A stretch of 64,000 bases of DNA, from NCBI RefSeq assembly GCF_001186155.3, contig NZ_CP016540.2:868001-932000 (forward strand), given 5' to 3'. This document shows, piece by piece, positions 4,163 through 54,642 of this stretch (its first letter is position 1; the number at the start of each line of letters is the position of its first letter). Below the pieces are notes generated by a model, which was not told the origin of the DNA, searched no databases, and saw nothing but the letters and a program-made list of their open reading frames with translations. The stretch comes from Planococcus versutus (lineage in GTDB: Bacteria; Bacillota; Bacilli; Bacillales_A; Planococcaceae). A program made the translations under genes and the position numbers.

Positions 4163-5720
<1,558 letters not shown>

Positions 5721-5755
5721 ATAAATTCGGAACCGGACGCCCTAGGCGCTCCGGG

Positions 5756-5778
5756 GTTGACGTTTTGCGTTCAGTTTT
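5756..5778 (+). other. 3' half of the 16S processing stem in the spacer
   Basis: GTTGACGTTTTGCGTTCAGT and the following TTT are complementary to 4028-4051 upstream of 16S. The spacer contains no tRNA gene. Confidence 0.8.
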
Positions 5779-5824
5779 GAAGGTTCATCTTCAGGCGGCA
5801 ACGCCTTTTTTTGTGACTTTCAGA

Positions 5825-5871
5825 CTTGTTCTTTGAAAACTGGATAAAACGACATTGAAACAAATGAAACA
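5825..5871 (+). other. 23S leader: boxA-like antitermination element and processing stem
   Basis: TGTTCTTTGAAAACT (5827-5841) resembles the Bacillus rrn boxA. The stretch through 5871 is largely complementary to 8876-8919 downstream of 23S, giving the 23S processing helix. Confidence 0.75.
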
Positions 5872-5923
5872 TGGATTCAAAGTACGCGTGGCACTTGATG
5901 CCACAACTTTTTAATTAACCAGT

Positions 5924-8853
<2,930 letters not shown>

Positions 8854-8875
8854 ACAAACTGTACGCGAATCATGC

Positions 8876-8919
8876 ACGATTTGTTTCATCTGTCGTTTAT
8901 CCAGTTTTGAGTGAACAAG
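8876..8919 (+). other. 3' half of the 23S processing stem
   Basis: The reverse complement of this segment matches 5825-5871 with few mismatches, including the shared AAAACTGGATAAA core. Confidence 0.75.
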
Positions 8920-8935
8920 CACTCAATTAAAATAG

Positions 8936-9050
8936 TCCAGTGATGATGGCAAAGAGGCCACACCCGTTCCCATCTCGAACACGGCAGTTAAGCTCTTTTG
9001 CGCTGATGGTAGTTGGGGTTTCCCCCTGTGAGAGTAAGACGTCGCTGGTC
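8936..9050 (+). rRNA. rrf: 5S ribosomal RNA
   Basis: The sequence contains CCACACCCGTTCCCATCTCG, the GAACACGG loop and the end helix CCAGTGATG/CGTCGCTGG. The length is about 115 nt. Confidence 0.95.
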
Positions 9051-10217: not shown

Positions 10218-10246
10218 TTGACGTAGTTTCTTCAACTTGTTATGAT
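10218..10246 (+). promoter_or_regulatory. pur operon promoter
   Basis: TTGACG, a 17-nt spacer and TATGAT form a strong sigma-A promoter directly after the PurR operator and about 10 nt before the purine aptamer. Confidence 0.88.
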
Positions 10247-10255
10247 AAGTGAGGA

Positions 10256-10328
10256 TACCCCATATATGCAGAAGAATTGGCTTCTGCGTCTCTACCAAGA
10301 CACCGTAAATGTCTGGACTATGCGGGAA
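10256..10328 (+). promoter_or_regulatory. Guanine-class purine riboswitch of the pur operon
   Basis: The aptamer core CCCCATATATGCAG, GTCTCTACCAAGACACCGTA and GTCTGGACTATGCGGG is present. C in GGACTATG predicts guanine or hypoxanthine specificity. It lies in the long purE leader. Confidence 0.95.
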
Positions 10329-10399
10329 AGCAACTTATTGGGTCGTAAAGCGAAGGATGTGCGTACATGCCATCATTTAAAATTCGTATCATTTACAGT

Positions 10400-27375: not shown

Positions 27376-28068
27376 ATGGATTTTAAAACGTGGCAACATG
27401 TCTTTAAGTTAGATCCGGCAAAACAGATAACAGATGAACATTTGGACCGAATTTGTAAATCCAGGACGGATGCCATCTTGATTGGTGGCAGTGATCATGT
27501 CACACTCGAGAATATCCTTCACTTGACTGAACGTCTGCACCAATATACGCTACCAGTCGTTTTAGAAGTGTCGATAATCGATTCCGTAATACCTGGATTT
27601 GATTATTACTTTATCCCGACGGTATTAAATAGTGACAATCCGCAGTGGATTAAAGGGCTTCATCATGAAGCCATTCGTGAATACGGAGAAATTTTGGATT
27701 GGGACGAATTGGTACCAGAAGGCTACTGCATTTTAAACGCCGAGTGTAAAGCTGCAAAATTAACCCAGGCACAAACAAATTTAACGACAGAAGATGTAAT
27801 AGCTTATGCACGTTTAGCGGAACATTTCTTTCGTCTGCCTATTTTTTATTTAGAATACAGTGGTATGTTTGGGGATATGGAGCTTGTTAAAAAAGTGAAA
27901 AATGTACTCACAGAAACTCGATTGTTTTATGGAGGCGGTATTGATTCAGCCACAACAGCAAAAAAGGCAGCGGCTATCGCTGATACTGTAGTTGTTGGCA
28001 ATGTTATTTATGAAAATATTGAAAAAGCGATTGAAACCGTACAGGCAGTTGCGGAAACGGCTGATTAA
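27376..28068 (+). CDS. pcrB: Heptaprenylglyceryl phosphate synthase
   Basis: PcrB transfers a heptaprenyl group to glycerol-1-phosphate, making an archaeal-type ether lipid precursor in Bacillales. The 230-residue TIM-barrel protein shows [51 protein letters not shown] and [11 protein letters not shown], all characteristic of the family. It lies 40 nt before pcrA, the usual arrangement. Confidence 0.95.
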
Positions 28069-28108
28069 TCGTTATACTAATAAGAACGAATGTTCGAGGT
28101 GGTGCACA

Positions 28109-30321
28109 ATGGAATTAATAACGAAAAATCTATTAAACGGAATGAACCCGGAACAAACAGAAGCGGTCAAAACAACTGAAGGCCCTCTATTAATTATGGC
28201 GGGTGCAGGATCTGGTAAAACGCGTGTGTTAACACACCGTATTGCTTATTTGGTGTTGGAAAAACAAGTTTACCCATCGAATATTTTAGCTATTACTTTT
28301 ACCAATAAAGCTGCGCGTGAAATGCGTAACCGGATTGACGGATTACTAGGACACGGAACAGGTCAGCGGATGTGGGCGTCGACGTTTCACTCAATGTGTG
28401 TGCGTATTTTAAGACGTGATATTGACAAACTGGGCATGTCGAAAAGTTTCTCGATTTTAGATACCACTGACCAATTAACCGTCATTAAAAATGTGTTGAA
28501 ACAACAAAATCTAGATCCGAAAAAATACGAACCACGAACGATGTTAAATGCCATTTCATCAGCGAAAAACGAATGCATTGATGCATCCCAATTTGCCGCA
28601 GATATGAATCCATTTAATCCGTACGAAAAAACCGTATCGGATGTTTACACAGCATACGAAAAACGTCTAAAGAAAAACCAGTCACTTGATTTTGATGATT
28701 TAATTATGACGACGTTGAATTTATTTAATACTGTTCCTGAAGTATTAGAGTATTACCAAAATAAATTCCATTATATTCATGTCGACGAATACCAAGATAC
28801 AAACAATGCACAATATCAATTAGTACAGAAATTGGCGAGTAAATACAAAAATATTTGTGTCGTAGGGGATTCAGATCAGTCGATTTATCGTTGGCGTGGA
28901 GCAGATATTACCAATATTCTATCATTTGAAAAGGATTACCCGAATGCAAAAGTTATTATGCTTGAGCAAAATTATCGTTCGACAAAGCGCATTTTGCAAG
29001 CAGCCAATGACGTTATTCAAAAAAACACTAGTCGTTATCCGAAAGAATTGCGTACTGAAAACGACGAAGGTACAGCAATTACCTTGCATAAAGCAGGAGA
29101 TGAGCGCCAAGAAGCACAATTTGTCGTTCAAACCATTCAAAAGCTAATGGATGAAGAAAACTACAAAACTTCTGATTTTGCGATTCTTTACCGGACAAAT
29201 GCACAGTCACGAATTATGGAAGAAATGTTCGTCAAATCGAATATGTCTTACACCATCGTCGGTGGTACGAAGTTCTATGACCGCAAAGAAATCAAAGATT
29301 TGTTAGCGTACTTGCGTTTGATCGCAAATAACGATGATGATTTGTCTCTTGCGCGTGTTATTAACGAACCAAAACGTGGCATTGGCGCTACTTCTTTTGA
29401 GAAAATGGCGCGTTTTGCGATAGAACAAGACCGCACCATCATGGACGCGTTACAAGAAGCAGACTTTATGGGCTGACTCCTAAAACAGCTCAGACGGCTT
29501 TAGAGTTCCGCAATATGATGGCTAGCTTTACACAAATGCAAGAGTATTTATCCGTAACGGAACTAGTAGAAGAAGTACTGAAAAAATCGGGTTATCGCCA
29601 AATGCTGCAAAACGATAAAACCATTGAAGGAGAAAGTCGTCTTGAAAACTTGGATGAATTTTTATCGGTAACAAAAGCTTTTGAAAAGCAAAGTGATGAC
29701 AAATCATTAGTCGCTTTCTTGACAGACTTGGCACTGATTTCAGATATCGACTCGTTAGACGATGAAGAAGATGCAGATGGTCCGATTATTTTAATGACCA
29801 TGCATGCAGCAAAAGGTTTGGAATTTCCTGTCGTCTTTATTATTGGACTAGAAGAAAATGTTTTTCCTCATTCGCGTTCAAATAATGATGACGAAGAATT
29901 AGAAGAAGAGCGAAGACTTGCCTATGTCGGAATTACGCGTGCTGAACAGCGTTTGTATTTGACACATGCCTCTTCTCGTACATTGTACGGAAAAAGTAAT
30001 TTCAATATGCCTTCTCGCTTTATTTCTGAGATTTCTGAGGATTTGATTGAACAAACAAGAGCCCATCACCGGGCAGGTGCGGCAACAAGTTATAAACAAA
30101 TCCCGAAACGCGCAGCGGTTACTCGTCCTGGGTATAGTCAGTCGGGTGGAGAAAAGCTAGGATGGCAAACGGGTGATAAAGCAACACATAAAAAATGGGG
30201 TACTGGCACAGTTGTTAGCGTCAAAGGCGAAGGGGAGCAAATCGAACTTGATATTGCATTTCCAAGCCCTATCGGCATTAAACGGCTATTGGCTAAATTT
30301 GCGCCGATTGAAAAAGTATAA
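28109..30321 (+). pseudogene. pcrA: ATP-dependent DNA helicase PcrA, reading frame broken by one base
   Basis: A UvrD/Rep-type superfamily 1A 3'-5' helicase for plasmid replication, repair and removal of blocks to replication. ATG 28109 follows GAGGTGGTG. The first part runs from MAGAGSGKT (Walker A) through DEYQDTN and [16 protein letters not shown] to EADFMG, then meets TGA at 29474-29476. The -1 frame picks up at CTG 29473 and continues [14 protein letters not shown] through [30 protein letters not shown] and the C-terminal [15 protein letters not shown]. Joined, the length is about 737 residues, as expected for PcrA. One missing base near 29470-29474 explains everything. Because PcrA is normally essential, a sequencing error is the leading explanation, but a true mutation is possible. 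Confidence 0.9.
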
Positions 30322-30336
30322 TCGGGAGGAAACTAG

Positions 30337-32343
<2,007 letters not shown>

Positions 32344-54515: not shown

Positions 54516-54542
54516 ACAAGAGAAAGTCAAATAATTGTATAC

Positions 54543-54625
54543 ACCACAAGGGGAGCTTTAGCTGAGAGTGAACATTCGTTCTTACCCTTTGAACCTGTAA
54601 GTTAGTACTTGCGCAGGGATGTGGA
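54543..54625 (+). promoter_or_regulatory. TPP riboswitch (THI element)
   Basis: The conserved segments GGGGAGC...GCTGAGAGTGAAC, ACCCTTTGAACCTG and GTACTTGCGCAGGGATGTGG are present, with P1 closed by CCACA and TGTGG. It is followed by a terminator and thiT, so thiamine pyrophosphate should turn expression off. Confidence 0.97.
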
Positions 54626-54642
54626 TAGAAACCGGCCCCTAC

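Follow-up and report, generated by a model that had tools for sequence, protein, structure and literature searches.

The frameshift that splits the helicase gene pcrA of Planococcus versutus L10.15T (genome G000) is very probably (at roughly 0.9, judged from sequence comparison) an assembly error, an under-call of a G/C homopolymer in the PacBio RS II / HGAP 2 consensus, and the break would then be a commonplace mistake in the database record, most likely not a real feature. The initial annotation had headed it as the disruption of an essential gene, which probably does not describe the biology of the organism. In the proposed sequence of events pcrA in the cell would be whole, the HGAP 2 consensus of PacBio RS II data would under-count bases in G/C homopolymers, and the same under-counting would presumably have produced the pcrA break. 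This reading is favoured because of the sequencing platform, because other one-base losses at G runs occur in the same assembly, and because long G/C runs are in short supply there. Of the three options offered at the outset, namely sequencing or assembly error, recent mutation and ribosomal slippage, these same points support the first, and slippage has lost ground.

The pcrA locus and its break

The window, that is the whole 64,000-nucleotide stretch analysed, is G000:C1:868001-932000 of the 3.33-Mb Planococcus genome, and the features needed here are as follows.

27376-28068, pcrB, upstream neighbour of pcrA
28109-29476, plus strand, N-terminal part of pcrA, closed by TGA 29474-29476; TIGR01073 positions 1-444; identity to congeners as below
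29470-29476, plus strand, apparent one-base loss site, G run 29470-29472 followed by CTGA; frame -1
29473-30321, plus strand, C-terminal part of pcrA in the -1 frame; TIGR01073 positions 448-725; dN/dS 0.016-0.022
30337-32343, NAD-dependent DNA ligase gene, downstream neighbour of pcrA

The codons at the break are ATG (29468-29470), GGC (29471-29473) and TGA (29474-29476), and the coordinates together with the ORF list bear out the earlier claim that the pcrA frame stops at that TGA; the listed ORF over the N half runs 27992-29476, and the pcrA start is taken as 28109. The remainder of PcrA does lie, as had been read from the letters alone, in the -1 frame from CTG 29473, which is open up to the stop ending at 30321. 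Family similarity in both halves was confirmed with the pcrA profile TIGR01073, of whose 725 positions 1-444 are matched by the N half (734.6 bits) and 448-725 by the C half (361.0 bits). Neither half alone reaches the profile cut-off of 911.2 bits, and the whole protein is not carried by one frame. The gene agrees with PcrA, which is essential in Bacillus subtilis, in the profile positions covered by its two halves and in its place between pcrB and the ligase gene; it differs in occupying two frames, not one, in the G000 assembly. A genome-wide search of G000 for a second pcrA copy found none and the gene is single, the next-best pcrA-like genes being a UvrD-like one of 715 aa (G000:C1:2786944-2788770) and another of 609 aa.

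Comparison with pcrA of relatives

The gene is the single-copy orthologue of congeneric pcrA, which was matched in 46 of 46 genus genomes and is an uninterrupted ORF of 740-807 aa in 43 of them, the exceptions being G000, G039 and G041, of which the latter two are broken at other places. At the protein level the N half is 97-98% identical to the 11 nearest congeners. When the window was aligned at the DNA level with the 29 congeneric copies for which loci were given (L014-L042, out of 45 other genomes), its pcrA was found to lack exactly one majority column, next to the G run 29470-29472, where all 29 other rows are ungapped. The comparison with relatives that had been called for thus upholds the suggestion of one base missing near 29470-29474.

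Estimates of dN/dS, rough since dS exceeds 1, are 0.010 (N half) and 0.016 (C half) for G000 vs G008, and 0.009 and 0.022, respectively, for G000 vs G006. Between G008 and G006 the two halves give 0.008 and 0.022, so that the values for G000 are much alike, and both halves are under strong purifying selection. Full constraint on pcrA has lasted until very recently, and the break is either recent or absent from the organism. No decay of pcrA as a gene is seen in these values (0.009-0.022 in both halves, rough with dS above 1).

The frame of pcrA also appears to be split, elsewhere along the gene, at G039:C1:915300-917565, G041:C221:30250-32531 and G224:C1:1190106-1192330. The G039 and G224 assemblies consist of a single contig, with completeness of 94% and 83% and raised contamination.

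Other one-base breaks in the genome

The first 1.16 Mb of the G000 chromosome (3.25 Mb) were surveyed against the first 1.20 Mb of G008, with 5,000 bases masked, and 693 of the 902 G008 ORFs of at least 150 aa were alignable (726 kb, mean identity 0.825). One-base losses inside G000 genes amounted in these 693 pairs to four, and all four touch a G run: pcrA itself and the first three genes below, which are listed with the one gain.

G000:C1:54832-58379, mfd, one base lost at a six-G run near residue 838 of 1184, the break being near G000:C1:57,340
G000:C1:535186-536723, BCCT transporter, one base lost at a G run
G000:C1:375835-376780, CorA-type transporter, one base lost at a G run
G000 836508-837552, unnamed ORF, one base gained, with no long run at the site

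Differences are in excess at third codon positions on both sides of the break in all four losses and in the ORF with the gain, and since differences gather there, both sides of these five breaks were coding. The CorA-type gene is the weakest of the four one-base-loss genes; ahead of its break the protein likeness of 0.59 falls below the DNA likeness of 0.69, and third positions hold 37 of 68 differences, so that it fails the one comparison and passes the other. A fifth one-base loss in G000 lies beside AAA; the ORF concerned is acetyltransferase-like, poorly conserved and not among the 693 pairs. Reckoned from all runs of at least three (10,537 G/C and 57,328 A/T), the chance of at least four of five losses falling at G/C runs is about 0.0025.

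Stretches of at least 90 bases out of frame occurred in 34 of the 693 pairs, of which five were kept for G000, two are breaks of G008, eight concern rRNA and 19 were set aside. The eight are ORFs that overlie the beginning of an rRNA gene. The 19 are breaks upstream of the true start, their pre-break part being less alike in protein than in DNA in every case, and six of them, when tested, had no third-position excess before the break. An apparent split of dnaX was discarded as well, with its break at residue 119, a dnaX match only from residue 158 and 4 of 15 pre-break differences at third positions, which is no excess. The split-gene screen also gave 42 and 43 rows with in-frame stops; the stop counted in G000 mfd is at residue 6, ahead of the first ATG.

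Splits also affect five genes of G008 itself, where one base is missing at each of two G runs and at an A run and several gains occur as well. Among the five are FAD-binding, class-V aminotransferase-like, thiolase and BCCT genes (G008:C1:951311-952673, 1020371-1021617, 1125876-1127047 and 373645-375156). Since G008 has G-run losses too, without any shortage of seven-G runs, such losses are not peculiar to the G000 assembly.

Homopolymer runs and the sequencing platform

Over 1.155 Mb of G000, six-base G/C runs number 45 and those of at least seven bases 0, compared with 57 and 11 over 1.192 Mb of G008 and 18 and 4 over 400 kb of G006, and the A/T run spectra of the three genomes agree. Counted over the whole genome, on both strands and with overlaps, GGGGGGG matches four times in G000 and 17, 22, 24, 25, 28, 29, 32 and 44 times in eight of the 11 nearest congeners, while exact six-base G/C runs number 77 in G000 vs 117-213 in congeners. 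The ratio of seven- to six-base runs is 4:77 in G000 vs 221:1190 in congeners (Fisher p 0.006, the overlapping matches not being independent), and the scarcity of G runs in G000 may in part be true composition. The same kind of loss is then present elsewhere in the assembly and long G/C runs are depleted in it, with the split genes of G008 as counter-evidence.

The genome was sequenced on the PacBio RS II with C4 chemistry in one SMRT cell and assembled with HGAP version 2 at 219-fold coverage (PMC5320481). Short-read polishing is not mentioned in the available part of that paper, from which the platform is judged to be RS II and HGAP without such polishing. In another RS II C4 genome assembled with HGAP and Quiver, five coding G/C runs were one base short according to the part of PMC5064100 at hand. 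The likeness lies in RS II C4 with HGAP and in one-base losses at coding G/C runs; the difference is that the pcrA run here is just three G. More generally, excerpts of two further papers give homopolymer-length errors as the most common residual errors of long-read-only assemblies (PMC8812927) and homopolymer indels as the main long-read errors, although A/T runs led in the nanopore data of the latter (PMC12007338).

Several points speak against assembly error. The pcrA loss does touch a G run, but one of only three bases, where under-calling should be rare given that 552 four-G runs stand in frame in the genes without frame-changing indels (638 kb, with 808 G/C and 11,640 A/T runs of four or more). 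Further, the fifth loss is beside AAA and the one-base gain is at no long run, G008 carries G-run losses too, and among the other broken genes is mfd, a known suppressor.

Alternative explanations

B. subtilis does not survive the inactivation of pcrA, and loss of mfd suppresses the lethality of PcrA depletion there, as the available part of PMC7385302 has it. A real and recent one-base deletion in pcrA, tolerated since mfd was also lost in a natural or laboratory-selected double mutant, is accordingly conceivable, and is considered decidedly improbable. In such a mutant the absence of PcrA would no longer be toxic, the transcription-repair coupling factor encoded by mfd being gone too. What speaks for it is that only in G000 has mfd been split through loss of one base, the other 45 of the 46 genus genomes matching end to end (five of these 45 matches with one stop codon counted inside). 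The genes recJ, recA and recO are each in one open frame in G000, which rejects suppression via any of these and would leave mfd as the suppressor. However, mfd is broken at a run of six G, a length that the in-frame genes reach in 12 of their G/C runs and never exceed, and if the lost base was a member of the mfd run, the original run was longer than any in-frame one and so the place most prone to under-calling. The BCCT and CorA-type transporters are broken alike, without a known tie to PcrA, and mfd matches end to end in G039, G041 and G224, the other three genomes found with frame-split pcrA. PcrA-depleted mfd mutants of B. subtilis, moreover, form minute colonies, again by the excerpt of PMC7385302. 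A real deletion could also be tolerated with no help from mfd, for instance with the UvrD-like helicase of 715 aa standing in, which is likewise held improbable. G000 does hold that gene and the one of 609 aa, and the frame-split genes of G008 suggest that some such splits may be real; yet a paralogue of about 715-aa size is present in 46 of 46 genus genomes while pcrA stays in one frame in 43, and strong constraint persists on both pcrA halves.

Programmed -1 ribosomal frameshifting at ATG-GGC-TGA, joining the two halves in translation, is least credible of all, its probability being close to nil. A -1 step on GGC would restore the sequence expected of the family, and the very next codon is a stop, but the slippery heptamer X-XXY-YYZ is absent (the site reads T-ATG-GGC). 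RNA folding of the downstream 100 nt is unremarkable among non-pseudoknot folds (z 0.31, with 120 of 200 shuffles folding at least as well), and the two-frame arrangement is conserved in none of the 29 aligned relatives. Programmed frameshifting at pcrA, which the initial annotation had kept as a far less likely option, is hence rejected for want of heptamer, stimulatory structure and conservation.

Implications and further observations

If under-calling in the consensus is indeed the cause, pcrA, mfd and probably two transporters are falsely recorded as lost in the genome of a type strain, by which pseudogene lists and essential-gene comparisons are misled. Were G000 a true double mutant, the pcrA-mfd suppression described for B. 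subtilis would be borne out in nature.

Elsewhere in the window, three purine riboswitches on the plus strand (176-277, 2059-2160 and 10240-10340) surround an rRNA operon at 4165-9050. A TPP riboswitch occupies 54539-54636.

At the family level 15 of 261 genomes, picked by eye from a table, were examined, so that more split copies may exist. Eleven of the 15 genomes carry inserts of about 0.5-5.4 kb within pcrA. These inserts are mostly near residue 250 (DEYQDT), which we take to be motif II, or near residues 616-631, presumably motif VI. The insert loci fetched are the following.

G234:C19:24200-25150 (L263), pcrA insert
G093:C1:4828300-4829200 (L264), pcrA insert
G159:C1:3446850-3449420 (L265), pcrA insert
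G133:C53:147350-150100 (L266), pcrA insert

All four score as group II introns and two carry a reverse transcriptase ORF (626 and 631 aa), and by these matches pcrA looks like a recurrent target of group II introns in the family.
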